This document shows positions 189 through 37,994 of a DNA stretch of 38,282 nucleotides, piece after piece. This DNA is from Candidatus Brocadia sp. WS118 (GTDB lineage: Bacteria; Planctomycetota; Brocadiia; Brocadiales; Brocadiaceae): assembly GCA_007618135.1 (NCBI GenBank), contig PHFX01000016.1:1-38282 (forward strand), given 5' to 3'. The position numbers were made by a program, and so were the translations under genes. Under the pieces are notes generated by a model. The model had not been told where the DNA came from, made no database searches, and worked only from the letters and a program-made list of their open reading frames with translations. How positions within the stretch are numbered: the stretch's first letter is position 1; the number at the start of each line of letters is the position of its first letter.

Positions 189-1937
189 ATGAAATTAAAA
201 TATTTTAATATTACGCCTAAAATTATAAACTTTAATACCCAGAAGATTTCCAGAATACTTAAACAATCTAGGAGAAAATCTGCTTGGGGAATTGATATAA
301 ATGAATGCTTTTTAAGGGTGGCAAAAATCACTCGGGTATCTAATGAATTAATAATTGACGACCTCAGTATCATTGAAATTCCTCAACTTAAACCCGAAGC
401 AAACATTTCACAATCCGTTTATATCAAAGAGGCTATCCAAACTTTTTTTACAAGGCATTGCATCCATAGAGACGATAAGGTAGTAGTGTCTATTCCCGGA
501 CAGTCTGTGTTGTCCAGGTTCATTAGCATACCTCCTGTAGATAAAAAACAATTGAAAGCTATCGTAAGTTATGAGGCGAAGCAACAAATTCCCTTTGATC
601 TCAAGGACATTGTATGGGATTATCAACAATTAACGGAAAAGGTTATTGACGTAAATAGCATAGAGGTTGGTTTGTTTGCCTCTAAGCGAGTAACACTCGA
701 CCAGTTATTGGCCAATATCTCACCACTTAAGCCTAAGCTAAATGCAATACAGGCAGCACCTCTGGCTATTTACAATCTTATTTCTTTTGACCAACAAATC
801 AATGGTCTAACGATCATTATAAACGCAGAAACAGAAAACACCGATCTAATTATTGTTGATGGTCTATATTTCTGGCTTAGAAGCATCCCTACTTCTAAGG
901 TAGATGCTGACCTTGTTAAAGAAATCCAGAGATCTATGGAATATTACAAATCTTTAATGAAGGAGGCAGCTAATTTTCAGACTATTTTACTCATGGGAAA
1001 TAAATTTAAAGAATCACATAACGTAAAATTTATTACCGATAATTTTGCCTGCGAAGTAAAAATCTTTAAGACCTTAAACAATTTAAAATTGTCAAGCAAT
1101 ATAAATCCTACCTATTTCAACGAAAACATATTACCTTTTGCGTCTGCATTGGGGCTTGCACTCCAGGGAATCGGATTAGGCAGAATAAAAATTAATTTAT
1201 TACCGCCGGAACTGATAAAAGCCGCAGAGATTTCAGAGAAGAAACTATATGTGGTCGCTTCTCTTGGGTGCCTGGCCCTGTCGTTTATTATTCAATATGT
1301 TGGATTATATGCGCGAAATACCCATTTTCAGAATTCAGAAATTCAGTATCAAAAAGTGTTACAAAATATAAAAGAGCTTGAAGGAAAGTATAAAAATGCC
1401 GAAACTCTTGCACAAACAAACAAGTCTGCGCTTGACCTTATCTCCTCCATTGATTCTTTCCGGTTTCTTTGGTTGGAAGGCTTGAATAAATTACTCTCTC
1501 TGATACCGGACAACGTATCTCTTTGCGGTATCCAATCTTCATGGGTAGACGAAGATGCCATAGGTCTGTCGAAACAAACACCACCAGGGGTGGTAGTTCA
1601 GCAGAAAAAAACAGCCACGTCCCCACAACCTGGTGCTTCTAAAAAATTGCTTCTCATGGGAATCAAGGGAGAAAGTCAAGAACCAAGGATGCATTTTATT
1701 GAAGAGAGTATCCTTAAACCTATTCAAAATTTAACCCTTTTTGACAAAAAAGTTGCTGCATTTAAAAATGTAGAAATAGTGCCAGGTTCTTCTCGTCAGG
1801 TAGAGCACAAAGATGGCCTGGGTAATTGCATCAGTTTTGAGATACGATGGATTGTAAAATCAAACAATGAAATACACAGTGAGGAAGATTCATTAGTGTC
1901 AATAAGTGGAACTTCAACGCCGCTCAATAAATCCTAA
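189..1937 (+). CDS. pilM: PilM-like pilus assembly ATPase-fold protein with C-terminal PilN-like extension
   Basis: This is a cytoplasmic actin/FtsA-fold protein of type IV pilus or related secretion systems. PilM normally recruits PilN at the inner membrane. Residues about 34-340 carry PilM hallmarks: WGIDI near the start of the fold, PGQSVLSRF, a YEAKQQIPF segment and VWDYQ. The protein has 582 residues, whereas PilM is usually about 350. A membrane helix at about 352-374 is followed by a coiled-coil-like stretch and a C-terminal domain, as expected of PilN, so I infer a PilM-PilN fusion. It is first in a tight plus-strand run with PilO-like, PilP-like and secretin genes, 26 nt before the next gene. 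No good Shine-Dalgarno sequence precedes ATG 189. The fold assignment is firm; the fusion reading is inference. Confidence 0.82.
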   Translation: MKLKYFNITPKIINFNTQKISRILKQSRRKSAWGIDINECFLRVAKITRVSNELIIDDLSIIEIPQLKPEANISQSVYIKEAIQTFFTRHCIHRDDKVVVSIPGQSVLSRFISIPPVDKKQLKAIVSYEAKQQIPFDLKDIVWDYQQLTEKVIDVNSIEVGLFASKRVTLDQLLANISPLKPKLNAIQAAPLAIYNLISFDQQINGLTIIINAETENTDLIIVDGLYFWLRSIPTSKVDADLVKEIQRSMEYYKSLMKEAANFQTILLMGNKFKESHNVKFITDNFACEVKIFKTLNNLKLSSNINPTYFNENILPFASALGLALQGIGLGRIKINLLPPELIKAAEISEKKLYVVASLGCLALSFIIQYVGLYARNTHFQNSEIQYQKVLQNIKELEGKYKNAETLAQTNKSALDLISSIDSFRFLWLEGLNKLLSLIPDNVSLCGIQSSWVDEDAIGLSKQTPPGVVVQQKKTATSPQPGASKKLLLMGIKGESQEPRMHFIEESILKPIQNLTLFDKKVAAFKNVEIVPGSSRQVEHKDGLGNCISFEIRWIVKSNNEIHSEEDSLVSISGTSTPLNKS

Positions 1938-1963
1938 AGAAAAACGCAGGTTTTATATAATTT

Positions 1964-2869
1964 ATGAATACCATCAAGAATATGAATTTCCTACACATTC
2001 GAAAGATGTACCATAGTATCTTTGCTCGTATACTGAACTTTTGGCTGATCACTGGCATTGGTTTTTTTACCTTGTTGATACTTTTATTTGCATTTATATC
2101 TCCACTTTCAAATCAATATGCCAAGACTTACAAGAATGTGATGAATTTATCAGTTGCATTCGAAAGATATGCTGCAAAAAAAGACCTATATAATGAGTCT
2201 TGGATTGCATCAAAAAGACAAGAGGCTGAACTTTATAATAAAGAAGTTGAAAAGTGCAAGTCTTTTCTTAAAGGGAGAGATGATCATCTGGAATCAGTTT
2301 TTGTGATACAAGACACAGAAAAAAGGCTAATGAAGGTTGAGGATGAAGCTCTCTGGAAGAACGAGTATGGGAAAAGGATTTCTGCATTAGTGGCAAAATT
2401 AGAAGCAAATCACGTTGCCTTAGATAACGGCGCTTTGCCATTTCAAAATTGGGGGGCAGAAATTCCCGTCTGGGACAACATTTTATCAGCTCAAAAAAGA
2501 TTTTGGATTATAGAAGCGATTGTGAATATTATTCTTGATAATAACGGAATTACAAAACTTGAGAAAATCACCTTTAAAGAATCATGCTGTTCATATGACC
2601 TTTCTTTTGCGCACATTTACACCGCAATACCCATTACTATGAAGGTTGAATTGCAGGCAGACCGTATCCAATTTTTGCTACATGATATTTTAGAATCGTC
2701 CATTCCCTTTGTTATAGAGGGTGTCAATATTTCAAGTACCAATAAAATTCTGAACCCCAACTCCTCCATGGAAAATAATAATGCCTCCAGTGCTGAGACA
2801 AACAACAATCTGCCTCATCTTATTACTGACATTACTATTGATGCATATGTCATTGACTACAAAACATAA
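1964..2869 (+). CDS. PilO-like bitopic membrane protein
   Basis: I recognise this mainly from position and topology, not from strong motifs. It has a short cytoplasmic N-terminus, one membrane helix at about 25-46, then a charged helical region (about 50-160) and a mixed C-terminal domain, 301 residues in all. This is the layout of PilO/GspM-type inner-membrane alignment proteins, which pair with PilN below the secretin. It follows the pilM-like gene by 26 nt and precedes the next gene by 14 nt, so co-transcription is likely. The ribosome-binding site is weak (A/T-rich upstream), like the neighbours. It could instead belong to the Amuc_1100-like pilus-associated group, which has the same topology. 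Confidence 0.6.
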   Translation: MNTIKNMNFLHIRKMYHSIFARILNFWLITGIGFFTLLILLFAFISPLSNQYAKTYKNVMNLSVAFERYAAKKDLYNESWIASKRQEAELYNKEVEKCKSFLKGRDDHLESVFVIQDTEKRLMKVEDEALWKNEYGKRISALVAKLEANHVALDNGALPFQNWGAEIPVWDNILSAQKRFWIIEAIVNIILDNNGITKLEKITFKESCCSYDLSFAHIYTAIPITMKVELQADRIQFLLHDILESSIPFVIEGVNISSTNKILNPNSSMENNNASSAETNNNLPHLITDITIDAYVIDYKT

Positions 2870-2883
2870 ATCATTAAAAAAAG

Positions 2884-3684
2884 ATGAATATTAAATATTT
2901 TGTCTTCAAACACTTTGAAAAATTCATCCTTGGTATTATCGTGTGTTACCTTATATATACGGTAATTTGTACCTTTGTTACCGCAAGTTTAAAAATACAT
3001 AATATTGATTCAAAATTGCTGTCACTATCAACCATTATCGACAGAAAGCTTAAAACAGGTGTACCGCCACCGATAAATGCAGACCGAAAAGATGCGGCAC
3101 AATTAGAATTGCGACTTACAACTCCACCCGCTGCAAGTTTTTTATTGCGACCACACCTCTTCAGTAATTTTACATCAGGTGGATCAAATATGGACATTAC
3201 GACCAAGGATTTACTAAAAAAACGAGAAACACAACTTTCCTCCAGCATGGAAGGTAACATCCACGGAACTACAGAGTTTATCCTCAAAGGAGGAACTGCA
3301 GATATGGCATTGATTCAAATCAGGAAATTTTATAAAGACAAATGGTGGGCTGAAAGTTTTACCGTTGGAAAAGGAGAAATAATTGGCGGTGGGAAAAAAA
3401 TCGGTGCGGAAACTGTAGATTTTCACACATACTGTAGATTGACAGAAATTACTCCTCTTGCACCAAAACCATTCTTCACCAAGAAAACTACAGCCCTTCG
3501 GAATGAAAAGGACGAATTTTTAGGTATCTCGATGATAGAAGAAAAGCATATGGTCACAACTTCGCAAGTCTCCTTTGAAAATAAAAAAGGGGAGTCCTAT
3601 AATGTCTGGATAGGAGAGGTGGTTAAATTGGGAACAGAAACTGTTACCGTTTGTCCAATAACTAATACCATGTCAACTCATTAA
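2884..3684 (+). CDS. PilP-like membrane-anchored protein of the secretin operon
   Basis: This 266-residue protein has one N-terminal membrane helix (about 13-35) and a periplasmic part. A low-complexity linker (about 60-85, rich in Pro and Ala) leads to a probably beta-rich C-terminal half. It lies between a PilO-like protein and a secretin, where pil operons encode PilP (the secretin-binding lipoprotein) and T2SS operons encode GspC. Unlike PilP I see no lipobox cysteine, so the anchor would be the N-terminal helix as in GspC. The function is inferred from context; sequence similarity to PilP is not evident by eye. Spacing is 14 nt from the previous gene and 26 nt to the secretin. Confidence 0.5.
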   Translation: MNIKYFVFKHFEKFILGIIVCYLIYTVICTFVTASLKIHNIDSKLLSLSTIIDRKLKTGVPPPINADRKDAAQLELRLTTPPAASFLLRPHLFSNFTSGGSNMDITTKDLLKKRETQLSSSMEGNIHGTTEFILKGGTADMALIQIRKFYKDKWWAESFTVGKGEIIGGGKKIGAETVDFHTYCRLTEITPLAPKPFFTKKTTALRNEKDEFLGISMIEEKHMVTTSQVSFENKKGESYNVWIGEVVKLGTETVTVCPITNTMSTH

Positions 3685-7096: not shown

Positions 7097-7149
7097 TAAA
7101 AATAACCTTCCTGTGAAAATATTCATACAGAACAAATTCGGCAGGAAGG
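7097..7149 (-). terminator. Hairpin plus U-tract between riboswitch and amidase (expression platform candidate)
   Basis: Read on the minus strand, CCTTCCTG (7142-7149) pairs with CAGGAAGG (7106-7113) across a 28-nt loop and is followed at once by a T-rich run (7095-7105). It lies between the GEMM aptamer and the amidase start, where a ligand-controlled terminator is expected. The loop is long for an intrinsic terminator, so strength is uncertain. Confidence 0.55.
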
Positions 7150-7164
7150 CTATCTTTAAATCCA

Positions 7165-7262
7165 TTGCCGTGGAGAGTTTTTATTTCAGGTGCATGCCAT
7201 CTTAGCGGATTAAAGACCCTTTCCTTTGCGTCCCCCGATCACTCGGGGTTTGCCTTTATCGT
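7165..7262 (-). ncRNA. Cyclic di-GMP-I (GEMM) riboswitch upstream of the amidase
   Basis: On the minus strand the leader contains the GEMM-I core. AAAGGCAAACC is followed by a perfect CCCCGA/UCGGGG stem closed by a GUGA (GNRA) tetraloop, then GACGCAAAGG. The second half has the usual GGGUCU ... AAGAUGGC pair. In Vc2 numbering the ligand-contacting position 20 (the base before CAAACC) is G, which predicts c-di-GMP and not cGAMP. Transcription from the promoter at 7269-7296 would begin at about 7262, right at the aptamer. The 3' edge and outer stem are not clear by eye, so the boundary near 7165 is approximate. Confidence 0.8.
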
Positions 7263-7268
7263 TGCTTT

Positions 7269-18536: not shown

Positions 18537-18680
18537 TTTCAAATTGCGGATAACGCAAAGGAGATGAAAGGGAAAGGTTGGAAATCTCAACTTCTCAGCT
18601 TCTCAATTTCCCAACTTCATGATTCCCGCGCTCTCTGCTGTGAACAAACTTTTACTGAGAATTCAATGGGGAAAAATACT

Positions 18681-30673: not shown

Positions 30674-30702
30674 TTGACATTAGCTCATGAGTTGCGTAGA
30701 AT
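30674..30702 (+). promoter_or_regulatory. Strong promoter giving a leaderless exoribonuclease mRNA
   Basis: TTGACA (30674-30679), a 17-bp spacer and TAGAAT (30697-30702, 5/6) form a near-consensus sigma-70 promoter. The expected start (30708-30711) is at or within three bases of ATG 30711, leaving no room for a ribosome-binding site. Confidence 0.7.
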
Positions 30703-30710
30703 CCGTACAA

Positions 30711-31655
30711 ATGCCCAGAAAATATATTTCGAACCTGAAAACCGGTGAGATTGTTGAAGACGTGTTTCTTGTCCTGAAAAAGGAAATCAGGGAAACTCGC
30801 GAAAAAAAAACGTATCTCAACCTGCAACTGGCCGACAAATCAGGCTCTCTTGAAGCGCGGAAATGGGACGCGACGCCTCAACTGTGTAACAGCTTTAACA
30901 AAGATGAGTTTATAAAGATAAAAGGCGTTGTCGAGACCTTCAACAATACCCTGCAAATCCGCATTACCGAAATAAGTCCCCTTGCAGAAGCACACGTGCA
31001 GATGGGCGAATTCATACCAAGCACGGAAAAAGACGTTTCCGTGATGATGAACGACCTCAAACAGATTATCAAAACAATTCGTGATCCCTATCTTTCAAAG
31101 CTCTTGGATGCATTTTTTGCCGAAGAATCCTTTTGCCGGGTGTTTTCCACGGCGCCGGCCGCTACACAATACCATCATGCCTATTTGGGAGGGTTACTGG
31201 AGCATATCCTTTCTGTCGCCAAGCTGGCAATCAGCTTTTCAAATTTATATCCCCAGATAAAACGGGATTTATTACTCACGGGCGTCATTTTACATGACAT
31301 CGGAAAAACGCGTGAACTGTCCTACGAGCGCAGTTTTCAATATACCGATGAAGGACAACTCACCGGACACCTCATCTCAGGTGTACTGATGATCTATGAA
31401 AAGGCTCAAAAAATCGATGGGTTTCCATCCGATCTCCTCAACGTCCTTTTTCACCTCATATTGAGTCATCACGGGGAGTACGAGTGGGGGTCGCCGGTAA
31501 AGCCGGGCACACCCGAGGCCATAGCCTTGCACCACCTGGACAATCTGGATGCGAAGGTATACGCGGCAACAAAGGCAATAACCGAGCATAAAGACACCAG
31601 CAGCTCGTGGACAGATTACGTGAAGATGTTTGAACGGAGACTTTATAAAAAGTGA
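30711..31655 (+). CDS. YhaM-like 3'-5' exoribonuclease (OB fold plus HD domain)
   Basis: YhaM-family proteins are metal-dependent 3'-5' exonucleases in RNA turnover. With the start at 30711 there are 314 residues. An N-terminal OB-fold nucleic-acid domain (about 10-95) includes a segment resembling LADKSGSLEARKWD. The HD domain (about 150-290) has HHAYLGGLLEH (from about 153), His195-Asp196 in LHDIGKTREL, and a later LSHHGEYEWGSP. A longer frame begins at 30687, but that ATG lies between the -35 and -10 boxes, so I prefer 30711 and a leaderless message. Its neighbour on the same strand is RNase R, beyond an inserted element. Confidence 0.88.
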   Translation: MPRKYISNLKTGEIVEDVFLVLKKEIRETREKKTYLNLQLADKSGSLEARKWDATPQLCNSFNKDEFIKIKGVVETFNNTLQIRITEISPLAEAHVQMGEFIPSTEKDVSVMMNDLKQIIKTIRDPYLSKLLDAFFAEESFCRVFSTAPAATQYHHAYLGGLLEHILSVAKLAISFSNLYPQIKRDLLLTGVILHDIGKTRELSYERSFQYTDEGQLTGHLISGVLMIYEKAQKIDGFPSDLLNVLFHLILSHHGEYEWGSPVKPGTPEAIALHHLDNLDAKVYAATKAITEHKDTSSSWTDYVKMFERRLYKK

Positions 31656-31712: not shown

Positions 31713-32188
31713 AAAAACTCAATAGAAATAGCTAAACAAGAAATTTAAAATTAACATGATGAAAGGTTCCAACATTTCTGATCGTTTAGTTCAATTTTCT
31801 GTGAGAATTATTCGATTGGTGCACTCATTACGCAGTGATCCCGTCAATAAACATATTTCCCATCAACTACTCAGATCCGGTACTTCACCGGGCGCCAATT
31901 ATGAAGAAGCGCGGGGGGCAGAAAGTACCTTAGATTTCATTCATAAGTTAAAAGTGGTCTTGAAATAGTTACGCGAATCTATTTACTGGTTAAAAGTCAT
32001 CGAGCAAGCAAAAATAATTCCTTCAAAAAGGTTAATCGATATTCTTCGAGAGGCGGAAGAGTTAAGCAATATTATTGGTCAGTCTATTATTACCGCACAA
32101 AAAAATCAAAAACTTAAACTCGTTCCCGATAGAGCATAAAATAATCTTACTTTTTCATTGCTTGTTTAGCTATTTCTAGTGAGTTATT
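31713..32188. mobile_element. Intervening-sequence-like element: inverted repeats around a four-helix-bundle ORF
   Basis: Left arm 31713-31740 and right arm 32161-32188 are inverted copies at about 26 of 28 positions. They include a perfect 17-nt core, AGAAATAGCTAAACAAG, inverted as CTTGTTTAGCTATTTCT. The 420-nt interior holds one ORF of the four-helix-bundle (S23 / 23S rRNA intervening sequence) family. This is the same plan as rRNA intervening sequences (long terminal stem plus this ORF), but it lies between two protein genes. Just outside the left arm, near 31670-31690, is heptamer-like DNA (AGAAGTC AGAAGCC). I see no target duplication or transposase. Confidence 0.7.
31756..32139 (+). pseudogene. 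Four-helix-bundle (S23/IVS) protein gene with in-frame amber stop
   Basis: The 127-codon frame reads SDRLVQFSVRIIRLVHSL, then SHQLLRSGTSPGANYEEARGAES, then LHxLKVVLK-like helices, LRESIYWLKVI and EELSNIIGQSI, the usual four-helix-bundle protein found in 23S rRNA intervening sequences. Codon 71 is TAG (31966-31968) where relatives have Glu (KELRES), a single G-to-T change from GAG. Both sides stay in frame without other damage. It is therefore a recent pseudogene, or the stop is suppressed, which I have no reason to assume. The function of the family is unknown; it resembles the Avd protein of diversity-generating retroelements in fold. Confidence 0.88.
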
Positions 32189-32248: not shown

Positions 32249-34441
32249 ATGATCAATCCTATCGATATCCTCAAATTCATCCGCAATAAAAAATACAGTC
32301 CCATAACGGCCGCCGAGCTGGCTGATCATTTTGAGATCAGTGATGTGGAATACCGGAGATTCTGTGACCTTTTACAGGACCTGGAGTTTTCCGGTGAAAT
32401 CGTAAAGATCAAGCAAAAACAATACGCCGACCCGGAAAAGGTGCATTTAGCCGTGGGCACCCTGGAATGCAATCCGCGGGGATTTGGTTTTGTTATCCCG
32501 GCCAGAGCAGATGGGGGCGAAGACATTTATATCCGTGAAACAGACATGGGCTCCGCCATGAATGGAGACCTCGTAGTGGTGAGGCTTTCCTCACCGACCC
32601 AAATCCGCAAAAAAAGGAGAGAGAAAGGAAGAAGTGTGTCGGGGCAGGTTGTTAATGTTTTAAGGCGCGCGAATGAATTAGTCGTGGGTACCTTTGAAAA
32701 AACAAAACGGATGCTCTTTGTTGCCCCTGACGATCCCAGGTTATTCAGGGACATTTACGTTGCGGAAGACGTTTCAAAAGGCGCACAACCTGGCGATAAA
32801 GTGGTCGTTCGAGTCATTGAATGGCCATCACGGCATCTCAACCCGGAGGGAGAGGTTACAGAAATTTTAGGAAAAGAAGGTGACCCAAAGGTTGACCTTC
32901 GTTCTATTATTTATCAATTCAAGCTGCCACACGTCTTTGGTCAAAAAGTGCTAAAAGAAACGAAACAGGTGCCGCATGCCGTCTCAGAAAAAGAAATCCA
33001 GAACCGGCTCGACCTGCGCAACACGCTCATCATCACCATCGACCCGGAAGATGCCAAAGATTTTGATGACGCCGTATCCCTCGAAAAGGATAAAAATGGA
33101 GATTGGCGTTTGGGCGTACACGTAGCAGACGTTTCCTACTACGTAAAACCCGACACAACCATTGATAAGGATGCCCGCTACCGGGGAACCAGTGTTTACC
33201 TGCCCGGCGAAGTTATCCCGATGTTGCCTGAGATACTATCGAATAATATCTGCAGCCTGAGAGAAGGAGAAGATCGCCTCACCAAAAGTGTTTTTATGAC
33301 CATTGATCACAAAGGGTATCTTGTCAAAGCGGAGATCAGGCATTCGGTTATTAACGTTACCAAACGTTTGACATACAAGCAAGCTACCGACATCCTCAAG
33401 AATGAAACCGATATAAACATATCAGACGAAGCGGTAGCCATGCTGTGCAGCACGGCGCAACTTGCTGAATTGCTGTTTAAAAACCGGCTGGCGCGGGGAG
33501 CCCTGGAACTTGACCTCCCGGAAGTATCACTAAAATTAGACGAACACGGCTACGTCAAGGATGTGGAAAAGGTTGAAAGAGACATATCGCATAAATTAAT
33601 AGAGGAGTGTATGCTCCTGGCGAACGAAGCGGTGGCGACGTTCATGTTTGAAAAAAAGATGCCGCTGCTGTGCCGCGTCCATCCCGAACCAGAGGAAGAC
33701 GACATGCGGGAATTTGCGGAGTTTATCCGCGGACTGGAACACACCAGGATAGATCCCTTTAAAAGCAATCACCTGCAGTCGCTGCTCGACAAGGTGCGCG
33801 GACGTCCTGAGGCGTATACGGTGAACCTGGTGCTCCTGAAATCTATGAAACAGGCCGTTTATGCGGCGGGCGAAGGCCGCCATTTTGCCCTTGCGCTGGA
33901 TCATTATACCCATTTCACCTCCCCTATCCGCCGCTACCCCGACTTGCTTGTCCACCGGATCTTAGACCAATATTTCGCAGGTGAGTTGTCATCTCATTTA
34001 GTAAAAGATGCATGGATACATAGCTTATCCGAGTGGACAGGGCACTGCTCCATGACCGAACGCAGGGCAGATGAGGTTGAGCGCGAGATTACCAAACTCA
34101 AATTACTTCGGTTTCTTGAACATGAGGTTGGAAAGATCTTCGAGGGGGTCATTACCGGTGTTCAGGAATTCGGTTTCTTTGTTCAGCTAAACAAATATCT
34201 GTTGGAAGGGCTTGTTCATATCCGCACGCTGTCAGATGATATCTATCAGGTAGACAAGAAAACCATGTCCCTTGTTGGCACCCGTCGCAAGAAGATGTAC
34301 CGGATTGGGGAAGTTGTCAGGGTAAAGATCTATAAGATCGACTTTTTAAAAAGAGAGATTGATTTTATCCACTGTGGTAATCAGGAAGAAAGAACGAAGC
34401 ATAGAAAAACACGGAAGATTGCGGAAGATGATGGAGAATAA
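32249..34441 (+). CDS. rnr: Ribonuclease R
   Basis: This is a processive 3'-5' exoribonuclease that can degrade structured RNA. The 730 residues show an N-terminal winged-helix region (about 1-65), cold-shock domains (about 70-230), and the RNB catalytic domain (about 250-590) with TIDPEDAKDFDDAV at about 262-275 carrying the metal-binding aspartates. HFTSPIRRYPDLLVHR follows, and a C-terminal S1 domain lies at about 628-715 (GVITGVQEFGFFVQL). A short basic tail ends the protein. The start ATG 32249 has only a weak GGGA upstream. The inserted four-helix-bundle element ends 60 nt before it and may have displaced its promoter or an operon link to the YhaM-like gene. Confidence 0.96.
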   Translation: MINPIDILKFIRNKKYSPITAAELADHFEISDVEYRRFCDLLQDLEFSGEIVKIKQKQYADPEKVHLAVGTLECNPRGFGFVIPARADGGEDIYIRETDMGSAMNGDLVVVRLSSPTQIRKKRREKGRSVSGQVVNVLRRANELVVGTFEKTKRMLFVAPDDPRLFRDIYVAEDVSKGAQPGDKVVVRVIEWPSRHLNPEGEVTEILGKEGDPKVDLRSIIYQFKLPHVFGQKVLKETKQVPHAVSEKEIQNRLDLRNTLIITIDPEDAKDFDDAVSLEKDKNGDWRLGVHVADVSYYVKPDTTIDKDARYRGTSVYLPGEVIPMLPEILSNNICSLREGEDRLTKSVFMTIDHKGYLVKAEIRHSVINVTKRLTYKQATDILKNETDINISDEAVAMLCSTAQLAELLFKNRLARGALELDLPEVSLKLDEHGYVKDVEKVERDISHKLIEECMLLANEAVATFMFEKKMPLLCRVHPEPEEDDMREFAEFIRGLEHTRIDPFKSNHLQSLLDKVRGRPEAYTVNLVLLKSMKQAVYAAGEGRHFALALDHYTHFTSPIRRYPDLLVHRILDQYFAGELSSHLVKDAWIHSLSEWTGHCSMTERRADEVEREITKLKLLRFLEHEVGKIFEGVITGVQEFGFFVQLNKYLLEGLVHIRTLSDDIYQVDKKTMSLVGTRRKKMYRIGEVVRVKIYKIDFLKREIDFIHCGNQEERTKHRKTRKIAEDDGE

Positions 34442-34670: not shown

Positions 34671-37600
34671 ATGATTGTTTCTCCTGAAATGCTTGGGCTG
34701 ATCGAACGATTCGACACCAATCGCGAGGCGTATCGTTCCGGGACATACAATGAAACCCAGCTCCGTCGTGAATTTATCGATCCATTCTTTAAAATTCTGG
34801 GCTGGGATGTTGACAATGAGAAGGGCTATGCCGAGGCGTATAAAGACGTCATCCACGAGGATTCCGTAAAGGTTGGCGGTATGACGAAGGCCCCGGACTA
34901 CTGCTTCCGCATCGGAGGCGTCCGCAAATTCTTCGTGGAAACAAAGAAGCCCTCCGTCAACCTTAAAGATGATGCCGACCCTGCATTTCAACTGCGCCGC
35001 TACGCATGGTCTGCCAAGCTCCCGCTCAGTATTCTCACCGACTTCGAGGAGTTCGTCGTTTACGATTGCAGGATAAAACCCGATAAGTCAGACAAGTCTT
35101 CCACAGCCCGTATCCTCTATCTCAACCACACCGAGTATGCACAGCGCTGGGATGAGATCGCCTCCATCTTCTCACGTGAAGCGGTACTCAAAGGCGCCTT
35201 TGATAAATACGCCGAATCGGGCAAGGGCAAAAAAGGCACCGCATCGGTTGATGATGCCTTTCTGCATGAGATCGAATCCTGGCGCGACACGCTTGCCCGC
35301 AACCTGGCGTTACGGAATCCTGATTTGACCCAGCACGACACGAACTTTGCCGTCCAGCGTATCATCGACCGTATTATCTTCCTGCGTATCTGTGAGGATC
35401 GCGGCATCGAAAAATACGGTCGCCTCATGGCCTTGCAGAACGGTGACCGCGTGTACGCACGCCTCTGCGAAATGTTCCATCGCGCTGATGAACGCTACAA
35501 CTCCGGCTTGTTTCACTTCCAAAAGGAAAAGGGCCGTGCTGAATCGCCAGACACCCTCACCCTAGGCTTGACCATTGACGACAGTGCGCTCAAGGATATC
35601 ATCAAAAACCTGTACTATCCCGACAGCCCCTATGAATTCTCCGTCCTTTCGGCTGACATCCTGGGTCAGGTCTACGAGCAATTCCTGGGCAAGATAATCC
35701 GCCTAACGGCTGGCCATCGTGCTGTGGTAGAGGACAAGCCTGAGGTCAAGAAGGCAGGCGGGGTTTACTACACACCGACGTATATTGTTGACTACATCGT
35801 AAAGAATACCGTTGGTCGCCTGGTTACCCCCCCTTATTCCCCCCGTAAACGTGGGGAAAATATTTCCCTCCCCGTTTACGGGGAGGGCCAGGGTGGGGTT
35901 GCTGCTCACCTTCCCGGGAAAACACGAGGGGGTGATAAACTCTTGTGCAACATTACCCCCAAACAGGTATCCAAACTGAGAATCCTCGACCCTGCCTGCG
36001 GCTCAGGCTCCTTTCTCCTGGGCGCCTATGAATACCTGCTTGACTGGCACCGCGACTGGTACGTGACCAATGGCCCTGAGAAATGGTCAACGGGACGCTC
36101 ACCGGCATTATACCAATCTGGAAAATCCGAAATCCGAAGTCCAAAATCCGAAACAGATAGTTGGCGACTAACCACCGCAGAACGTAAGCGCATCCTGCTC
36201 AACAACATCTACGGTGTGGACATCGACCCGCAGGCCGTGGAGGTAACTAAGCTGTCACTGCTTTTGAAGGTGCTGGAAGGCGAGTCAGAGCAGACGATTG
36301 TAAGACAGCTCAAACTCTTCCACGAACGCGCCCTGCCCGATCTTGGCAATAACATCAAGTGTGGCAACTCACTCATCGGCACGGATTTTTATAACACACC
36401 CTTAACCCCTCCCGTATCGGAGTACGGGACAAGCCTTTTTAGAGAGGAAAAGGCGGACTCCCCTCTAGCAAGAGGGGCCGGGGGTGTGTCAGACGAGGAA
36501 CGATACCGCATCAATCCATTCGACTGGGACAAAGAATTCCCGGAGACCATGCAAGCAGGCGGGTTTGACGTAGTGATCGGAAACCCGCCGTATGTAAGAC
36601 AAGAAGGCTTAGGCGACCTGAAAGAATATCTCCAACGTAAATACACGGTATATCATGGGATGGCAGACCTCTATGCGTATTTTATTGAGAAAGGTGTTTC
36701 GCTGCTCAGGGATAAAGGGCGTTTCGGCTACATCGTTGCAAACAAGTGGATGCGGGCGAATTATGGTGAGCCGCTCAGAAAGTGGTTAAAGCAACAAGGT
36801 ATTGCGCAAATTGTTGATTTTGGGGACCTGCCGGTATTCCAGCAAGCCACAACGTATCCCTGCATCCTCGTCATCGGAAAAGACACATCTCCATCTGCCA
36901 CTCCTGATGGTTCAGCCTTGCAGCCTGAACCAGGTATTTTGATTCAATCGAAGAGGACTGCACCATTAAGATCGGCAAAGAAGCCTATTACCACGCTTTT
37001 CGTGACTCAGGTAAAGACACTTGAATTTGAAAGCCTGGAAGTCTATGTAAAAGGAAACCGCCATGCTGTAAAACTTGCCACCCTTGATGACACGGGCTGG
37101 TCGCTTGCAGACGAACGAAGCGCTGCGCTGCTCAACAAGCTGAAAAAGGCCGGAATTCCTTTGAAAGAATATGTGAAGGGTAAAATCTATCGAGGTGTTT
37201 TAACAGGGCTCAATGAGGCATTTGTAATCGATGCAGAAACAAGGAATCGGCTCATTTCTGAAGACCCTAAAAGCAAAGAGATTATAAAGCCATTCCTGAT
37301 AGGGCGAGACGTTAAACGTTATCAGCCGCCAACGTGCAAGCAATTTTTGATTTTTACCAGACGTGGATTCGATATCCAAAAATATCCTGCCATAGAAAAG
37401 TATTTAAGCCAGTATAAAGAACTGCTTATGCCAAAACCGAAGGACTGGAAGGGTAGTAATTGGAAAGGAAGAAAACCTGGATCCTACAAATGGTATGAAA
37501 TTCAAGATGCAGTTGACTACTATGCTGAGTTTGAAAAACCAAAGATAATTATTCCAACTATTGTGCAAAACGCCTCATATACCTTAGATATTTCAGGTTT

Positions 37601-37994
37601 TTATTCGAATGACAAAACATCTATTATTGGTACAGAAGATTTATACTTGCTTGGAATATTGAATTCAAGAGTGGCCGACTTCGTCATGCATTCGATTTCC
37701 TCTACCAAACAGGGTGGTTATTTTGAATATAAACCCATGTATTTTTCACAAATTCCCATTCATACAATTGACTCATCCAACCCATCGGATAAATCGTGCC
37801 ACTATAGCATGGTTGCTCTTATCAGACAGATGCTCGAACTGCACAAGCAATTATTATCGGCAAAGACGGATCATGACAAGACCGTCATCCGGCGTCAAAT
37901 TGACGCCACCGACCGCCAGATTGACCGGTTGGTGTACGAATTGTACGGATTAACGGAGGAGGAAATTAAAATTGTTGAGGAAGGAACAACATGA
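34671..37994 (+). CDS. Type IIG restriction-modification enzyme (fused nuclease and N6-adenine methyltransferase)
   Basis: One polypeptide of 1107 residues would both cleave and methylate DNA. An N-terminal nuclease domain shows a PD...ExK core: Pro75-Asp76 and Glu90-x-Lys92 (FFVETKKPS). A helical linker precedes the methyltransferase: SAM-binding motif I DPACGSGSF at 440-448 and catalytic motif IV NPPY at 638-641 (gamma-type order, adenine N6). A C-terminal TaqI-like specificity domain covers about 800-1050. Four stretches look like in-frame repeat insertions (about 386-410, 484-495, 575-607, 746-754), all outside catalytic motifs. The frame is intact throughout. The start ATG 34671 has no clear ribosome-binding site. 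No separate restriction or methylase gene is visible beside it. Confidence 0.9.
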   Translation: MIVSPEMLGLIERFDTNREAYRSGTYNETQLRREFIDPFFKILGWDVDNEKGYAEAYKDVIHEDSVKVGGMTKAPDYCFRIGGVRKFFVETKKPSVNLKDDADPAFQLRRYAWSAKLPLSILTDFEEFVVYDCRIKPDKSDKSSTARILYLNHTEYAQRWDEIASIFSREAVLKGAFDKYAESGKGKKGTASVDDAFLHEIESWRDTLARNLALRNPDLTQHDTNFAVQRIIDRIIFLRICEDRGIEKYGRLMALQNGDRVYARLCEMFHRADERYNSGLFHFQKEKGRAESPDTLTLGLTIDDSALKDIIKNLYYPDSPYEFSVLSADILGQVYEQFLGKIIRLTAGHRAVVEDKPEVKKAGGVYYTPTYIVDYIVKNTVGRLVTPPYSPRKRGENISLPVYGEGQGGVAAHLPGKTRGGDKLLCNITPKQVSKLRILDPACGSGSFLLGAYEYLLDWHRDWYVTNGPEKWSTGRSPALYQSGKSEIRSPKSETDSWRLTTAERKRILLNNIYGVDIDPQAVEVTKLSLLLKVLEGESEQTIVRQLKLFHERALPDLGNNIKCGNSLIGTDFYNTPLTPPVSEYGTSLFREEKADSPLARGAGGVSDEERYRINPFDWDKEFPETMQAGGFDVVIGNPPYVRQEGLGDLKEYLQRKYTVYHGMADLYAYFIEKGVSLLRDKGRFGYIVANKWMRANYGEPLRKWLKQQGIAQIVDFGDLPVFQQATTYPCILVIGKDTSPSATPDGSALQPEPGILIQSKRTAPLRSAKKPITTLFVTQVKTLEFESLEVYVKGNRHAVKLATLDDTGWSLADERSAALLNKLKKAGIPLKEYVKGKIYRGVLTGLNEAFVIDAETRNRLISEDPKSKEIIKPFLIGRDVKRYQPPTCKQFLIFTRRGFDIQKYPAIEKYLSQYKELLMPKPKDWKGSNWKGRKPGSYKWYEIQDAVDYYAEFEKPKIIIPTIVQNASYTLDISGFYSNDKTSIIGTEDLYLLGILNSRVADFVMHSISSTKQGGYFEYKPMYFSQIPIHTIDSSNPSDKSCHYSMVALIRQMLELHKQLLSAKTDHDKTVIRRQIDATDRQIDRLVYELYGLTEEEIKIVEEGTT
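35826..35900. repeat. In-frame palindromic insertion A inside the type IIG gene
   Basis: A 75-nt C/G-rich palindrome (core GTAAACG ... CGTTTAC; outer CCCCTTATT ... CCAGGGTGGGG) encodes a PPYSPRKRGENISLPVYGEG-like stretch. The stretch lies between the NTVGRLV segment and the residues leading into motif I. Its length is a multiple of three. It belongs to a CCCTGGCCCTCCCC-type repeat distinct from insertion C. Confidence 0.75.
36121..36155. repeat. In-frame heptamer repeat (CGAAATC)5 inside the type IIG gene
   Basis: Five consecutive 7-nt units (GAAAATC, CGAAATC, CGAAGTC, CAAAATC, CGAAACA) encode GKSEIRSPKSET. They lie in the loop between the YQ of GRSPALYQ and the conserved WRLTTAERKRILLNNIYGVD block. 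Similar heptamer words occur outside the four-helix-bundle element (near 31670) and upstream of uvrA. Confidence 0.7.
36394..36489. repeat. In-frame palindromic insertion C inside the type IIG gene
   Basis: This 96-nt (32-codon) element has arms ACACACCCTTAACCCCTC (36394-36411) and GAGGGGCCGGGGGTGTGT (36472-36489), 16 of 18 complementary. The right arm is the exact inverse of the left arm of the intergenic element at 34538-34555. It adds a Pro/Gly/Ala-rich loop (TPLTPPVSEYG ... LARGAGGV) between the conserved GNSLIGTDFY and RINPFDWDKEFP segments. Confidence 0.85.
36907..36932. repeat. Short palindrome D inside the type IIG gene
   Basis: TGGTTCAG and CTGAACCA enclose CCTTGCAGC. It matches the hairpin just downstream of the gene (38006-38028, GGTTCA...TTGCAGC...TGAACC) at 19 of 23 positions. 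It encodes DGSALQPEPG within a Ser/Pro-rich segment (about 735-770) that looks like added sequence. Confidence 0.6.

Follow-up and report, generated by a model that had tools for sequence, protein, structure and literature searches.

What kind of unit is a small reading frame held between two inverted arms when it sits between two genes for RNA-degrading enzymes, and not in rRNA? The question is raised by a locus in a 38,282-nt stretch of the Candidatus Brocadia sp. WS118 genome (GCA_007618135.1, contig PHFX01000016.1; hereafter the window). A preliminary description, made from the sequence alone, proposed an intervening-sequence-like mobile element defined by its arms, carrying an S23/four-helix-bundle ORF, possibly moved in trans, with a transcript forming one long stem and a possible regulatory link to its RNase neighbors. 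The features of the locus are the following.

30687 to 31655, plus strand: upstream operon neighbor, a YhaM-like gene, orthologous in sister genomes that carry other elements or none in this spacer.
31713 to 31740, plus strand: left (5') arm, 28-nt core; weaker complementarity extends to 31760.
31756 to 32139, plus strand: PF05635/TIGR02436 four-helix-bundle (23S IVS/Avd-like) ORF, a pseudogene.
31966 to 31968, plus strand: in-frame TAG at codon 71.
32161 to 32188, plus strand: right (3') arm, 28-nt core; complementarity extends inward to 32141.
32249 to 34441, plus strand: downstream operon neighbor, an RNase R-like gene, orthologous in 34 of 39 genomes searched.

The observation itself holds. 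The two arms match at 26 of 28 positions, and when extended without gaps they reach 48 nt at 83% identity. Their alignment score of 30.4 compares with a mean of 9.3 (SD 1.4, maximum 15.4) in 400 dinucleotide shuffles, none of which scored as high. In profile searches the ORF exceeds the curated cutoffs of both families (TIGR02436, 79.4 bits against 24, E = 2e-22; PF05635, 54.1 bits against 33.8, E = 2e-14), and the unit fills most of the spacer between yhaM and rnr. However, the in-frame TAG was missed in the preliminary description, and this copy is therefore a pseudogene. The closest relatives (loci L087 and L095; L numbers denote the loci compared here) have Glu at this position, in the context KELRE, and the stop lies three codons upstream of the invariant Glu. 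The arm core is unique in the genome, and a search of 20 genomes at 0–1 mismatches found no other copy. The window arms also differ from those of most family members in showing no clear 7-nt periodicity (lag-7 identity 0.35), although by eye the arm can be aligned with the heptameric arm of the sister lineage, i.e. AATATCG-AATATCG-AACAAGG-AATAATG. No rRNA family hit was found in the window, and no 23S-like motif was found in any locus examined; the same scan reveals a c-di-GMP-I-GGC riboswitch aptamer at 7136–7263 on the minus strand (63.8 bits).

We asked whether other PF05635 genes carry arms as well. The window genome holds 10 PF05635 copies, and each of the 20 anammox-related Planctomycete genomes searched holds 1–27. 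For 88 copies with both flanks, the left flank was compared with the reverse complement of its own right flank: the median score is 17.9, compared with 8.7 when flanks of different copies are crossed, and 93% exceed the 95th percentile of the crosses. An alignment of distant members gave no pattern usable for a wider scan, but a narrower alignment did, and produced 80 loci from many phyla, including Bacteroidota, Chloroflexi, Acidobacteria, Proteobacteria, Spirochaetes, Patescibacteria, Firmicutes, and Verrucomicrobia. In this second set, in which one locus duplicates a locus of the first, the median is 19.8 compared with 9.0 for other segments of the same loci. At a threshold of 13, 150 of 168 elements (89%) have inverted arms, against 0 of 38 ordinary ORFs in the same loci.

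The arms are usually tandem arrays of 7-nt units (sometimes 8–9), with unit sequences that differ from element to element. Identity at lag 7 is 0.51–0.52 in the two sets, compared with 0.27 in controls, with further peaks at lags 14 and 21. Read inward, the arms have about twice as many G as C in both sets (G > C in 133 of 150), and the unit contains AG in 57 of 106 cases, compared with 8 when read outward. Similar arrays also occur alone. For example, a solo octamer array (TCTCAACT) lies at window positions 18585–18618 at the start of an ORF, with no PF05635 ORF nearby, and is the same kind of unit as the arms of loci L002 and L003. Likewise, a heptamer array (AAATCCG) at 36123–36153 lies, apparently in frame, inside a restriction/methylase-like gene (34671–37994) that also carries other in-frame repeat peptides (TPPYSPRKRGENISLPVYGEGQGGV, PLTPPVSEYGTSLFREEKADSPLARG) and inverted flanks scoring 21.

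Do these units move? Elements 85–93% identical lie at different sites, with homology confined to the ORF plus a few tens of nucleotides and ending near the arms. Specifically, this is the case for L087 and L095 in two genomes (90% over 429 nt), and for L122/L124 (93% over 409 nt) and L123/L125/L126/L046 within one genome. The arm of a sister lineage (the DLEERL lineage) occurs at 94 places in 11 of 12 genomes, compared with 0 for a reversed-pattern control, and about two-thirds of the 30 loci inspected have no recognizable ORF; no such dispersed copies exist for the window arms. At the site we call x-radSAM, one genome (G007; G numbers denote genomes of the comparison) retains only a 60-nt hairpin spacer made of the two arms, and locus L130 (G015:C18) holds 2 adjacent PF05635 ORFs about 90% identical over 296 nt, i.e. 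a tandem pair. By contrast, no clean empty/occupied pair with a target-site duplication was found, the boundaries being visible only against diverged homologs. A search of phages returned no match, and among 32 plasmid records the regions examined gave no near-identical occupied/empty pair, although in one of these (L224, Anabaena sp. 90 plasmid pANA02) a PF05635 ORF sits between cas6 and cas4 of a type I-D CRISPR operon, on the same strand.

The same spacer can also hold different elements. Between species whose flanks are about 80–95% identical, unrelated lineages (about 30% protein identity or less where measured) with different arms are found in carA-carB, trpF-selA, an efflux operon, x-radSAM, and yhaM-rnr itself. 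At yhaM-rnr, lineage A is present in G008, G001, G003, G007, and G005, with a remnant in G002, while lineage B is present in the window genome, with a remnant (by eye) in G004; no PF05635 ORF was found in this spacer in the other genera. In G009 (L054), a different insertion (GGATATAGCAGGGGGTGAAGCCCCCTG...) follows what looks like a left-arm remnant of lineage A, and similar sequence occurs in other spacers. In selA of G001, G005, G007, G009, G010, and others (L266–L273), matches split near codon 55 with an open frame continuing, as if a short in-frame insert were present. If insertion were random among 1,500–3,000 spacers, sharing 4 sites between 2 genomes would have a probability near 1e-6 to 1e-7 under a rough model, although tandem ancestral elements with differential loss cannot be excluded. 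The preliminary description had set a condition for its own refutation, namely that no other copy of the arms exists and that sister genomes carry the ORF at this site with diverged flanks. This condition is half fulfilled: no other copy of these arms exists, but sisters carry a different ORF lineage with its own arms, not the same ORF.

Insertion is almost only in the direction of transcription. Where both neighboring genes lie on one strand, the ORF is in sense in 58 of 59 cases in the first set and 50 of 57 in the second (P = 2e-16 and 4e-9; 108 of 116 together), with gene strands called by longest ORF and counts that are not fully independent owing to orthologous sites. Furthermore, in 14 loci (9 contexts after merging orthologs: three mod methylases, three pglX genes, a histidine kinase, a CoA-enzyme activase, and an integrase) the element lies inside a host gene whose frame is open through both arms and through the IVP gene, always in frame +2 and never antisense. 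This frame rule is probably partly trivial, because frame +1 of this lineage carries built-in stops. Homologs without the insert show that the gene is interrupted in a short variable loop; mod methylases of 2 phyla share one position and BREX pglX of 3 phyla share another, which transfer of the host gene together with the element could explain.

The protein is under purifying selection. dN/dS is 0.06–0.18 in lineage A, at most 0.09 in the carA-carB lineage, and 0.06–0.31 at x-radSAM. In nearly all same-site comparisons the dS of the element is below that of the flanking genes, usually by 2- to 4-fold (the exception, L028/L045, is saturated), without a clear conversion gradient in the flanks. 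This suggests repeated transfer into the same site, but slower synonymous change in the element is not excluded. The solved relatives of the protein are 2rld and 2gsc, and 7 of 11 family members match PHROG 3206 (E = 1.9e-9), the group of Avd, the accessory protein of diversity-generating retroelements, in line with a published remark on PF05635 (PMC10053308).

Taken together, we read the locus, with a probability of roughly 0.6, as a decayed copy of a small (about 0.45–0.6 kb) single-gene, Avd-like, IVS-type mobile element outside rRNA, bounded by inverted arms that in most copies are tandem 7-nt arrays private to the element. What the comparison demonstrates is an arm-bounded unit present at different sites, dispersed deletion derivatives and solo arms, placement in the sense of transcription in operon spacers or in frame inside genes, selection on the protein, and recurrence of unrelated lineages in the same spacer. 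The mechanism, by contrast, is inferred: in this view, the paired arms, as a DNA or RNA hairpin, are the ends recognized by the element's own protein, which would recruit a cellular nuclease or polymerase to copy the unit into transcribed, structurally tolerant gaps, preferring sites that already hold such hairpins. The transcript's stem, or the open host frame, would let the host tolerate the insert, as IVSs are tolerated in 23S rRNA; any movement in trans or RNase III processing likewise rests on inference. The protein core is not strongly basic (mean net charge +1.8), such that nucleic acid binding is not obvious, and no catalytic enzyme is encoded, as only PF05635 was found and arms and ORF fill the unit. 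A single long RNA stem is plausible, but the arms of the one orthologous site tested (x-radSAM) show no covariation above shuffles. The orientation bias could also reflect selection for co-transcription rather than the insertion mechanism. In this reading the window copy was silenced by a nonsense mutation. The interpretation in the preliminary description is thus partly supported, i.e. at the family level for a mobile, arm-bounded unit outside rRNA with the 23S-IVS ORF, but not for a link to RNases.

Among the alternatives, the one that survives best, though we consider it unlikely, is a selfish or addictive gene without a promoter that moves in any orientation by an ordinary transposase in trans, with only sense copies within transcribed units persisting because the protein must be expressed. 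Purifying selection, the sense bias, and a ribosome-binding-like AGGAG between arm and ORF at one site agree with this view. However, the bias is extreme (58:1 in one set), even fragmentary or pseudogene copies, including that of the window, are in sense, and no trans-acting transposase sharing these ends was identified. Less likely still is RNA-level retrohoming, in which the arm-bounded transcript is copied back into DNA by a reverse transcriptase supplied in trans, with the Avd-like protein as its partner. Homology to Avd, the sense insertion, and recurrence at the same sites with low element dS favor it, yet dependence on a reverse transcriptase is not supported: 7 of 20 element-bearing genomes have no RVT_1 match (incomplete assemblies and divergent reverse transcriptases being a caveat), none lies on the window contig or near the elements inspected, and covariation is absent at the site tested. 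An old, immobile operon accessory gene, with heptamer arrays arising nearby by replication slippage and quasi-palindrome correction, is very unlikely; several sites are shared across genera (carA-carB, x-radSAM) and arrays also occur alone, but this reading is contradicted by the copies at multiple sites, unless these prove to be assembly artifacts, as well as by the 94 dispersed arms, the swapping of unrelated lineages at one site, and the lack of arms around ordinary ORFs. Finally, control of, or processing by, YhaM and RNase R rests only on position and strand and can be set aside, because the spacer is empty in many relatives, holds a different lineage in 5 and remnants in others, the family occurs beside unrelated operons, and the window ORF is broken; the RNase neighbors are incidental.

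How does this unit compare with systems already described? Intervening sequences of 23S rRNA with an S23 ORF (Leptospira, Coxiella) share the ORF family and its enclosure by terminal inverted repeats that form a stem; in Coxiella, the stem is 28 bp, the element 428 nt, and the ORF decaying (PMC4990558). The present elements differ in lying outside rRNA, in arms that are usually heptamer arrays, in having many copies per genome, in same-site replacement, and in in-frame insertion into protein genes. With Avd of diversity-generating retroelements there is protein homology only, without a reverse transcriptase or template/variable repeats. Rickettsia palindromic elements are palindromic selfish DNA inserted in frame in protein-coding genes, as are the relatives in mod methylase, pglX, histidine kinase, activase, and integrase genes (but not the window copy); here, however, the elements carry their own conserved gene in another frame and occur across phyla, mostly in operon spacers. 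REP/RAYT and MITE families are also small inverted-repeat units with dispersed ORF-less derivatives, as seen in the sister lineage, but no Y1 or DDE transposase is known to act on the elements studied here, and the arms differ from copy to copy. The elements work like Rickettsia palindromic elements where they sit inside genes, and like MITEs in their derivatives, without belonging to either. Bacterial heptanucleotide arrays are tandem 7-nt units, largely intergenic (PMC4679880, PMC2700814), and a term search of PMC4679880 found no mention of S23 or four-helix ORFs; here the arrays form inverted pairs around a PF05635 ORF. Literature searches found no paper that ties PF05635 ORFs to heptamer arms, sense polarity, or in-frame insertion, although most subscription journals and preprints were outside their scope and novelty is thus provisional.

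A broader reading, which we hold only tentatively, is that PF05635 ORFs with their paired heptamer arms are a distinct, phylum-spanning class of mobile element without a recognizable transposase, integrase, or reverse transcriptase. Such elements would insert with transcription polarity, home to and replace one another at fixed operon spacers and gene loops, and keep the host frame open through an overlapping gene, and the 23S rRNA intervening sequences would be one niche of this class.

Intervening sequences of 23S rRNA have been an orphan curiosity for decades, with a selfish origin suspected and ORF function and mobility unknown (PMC4990558). Our comparison gives them a large non-rRNA family with defined ends, orientation, sites, derivatives, and selection on the protein, which makes the question of mobility directly testable. 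It also suggests where many of the heptamer repeats of bacterial genomes come from, flags a large class of annotated "four helix bundle protein" genes as probable mobile elements, and shows a mobile gene that can sit in frame inside BREX and other DNA methyltransferase genes.
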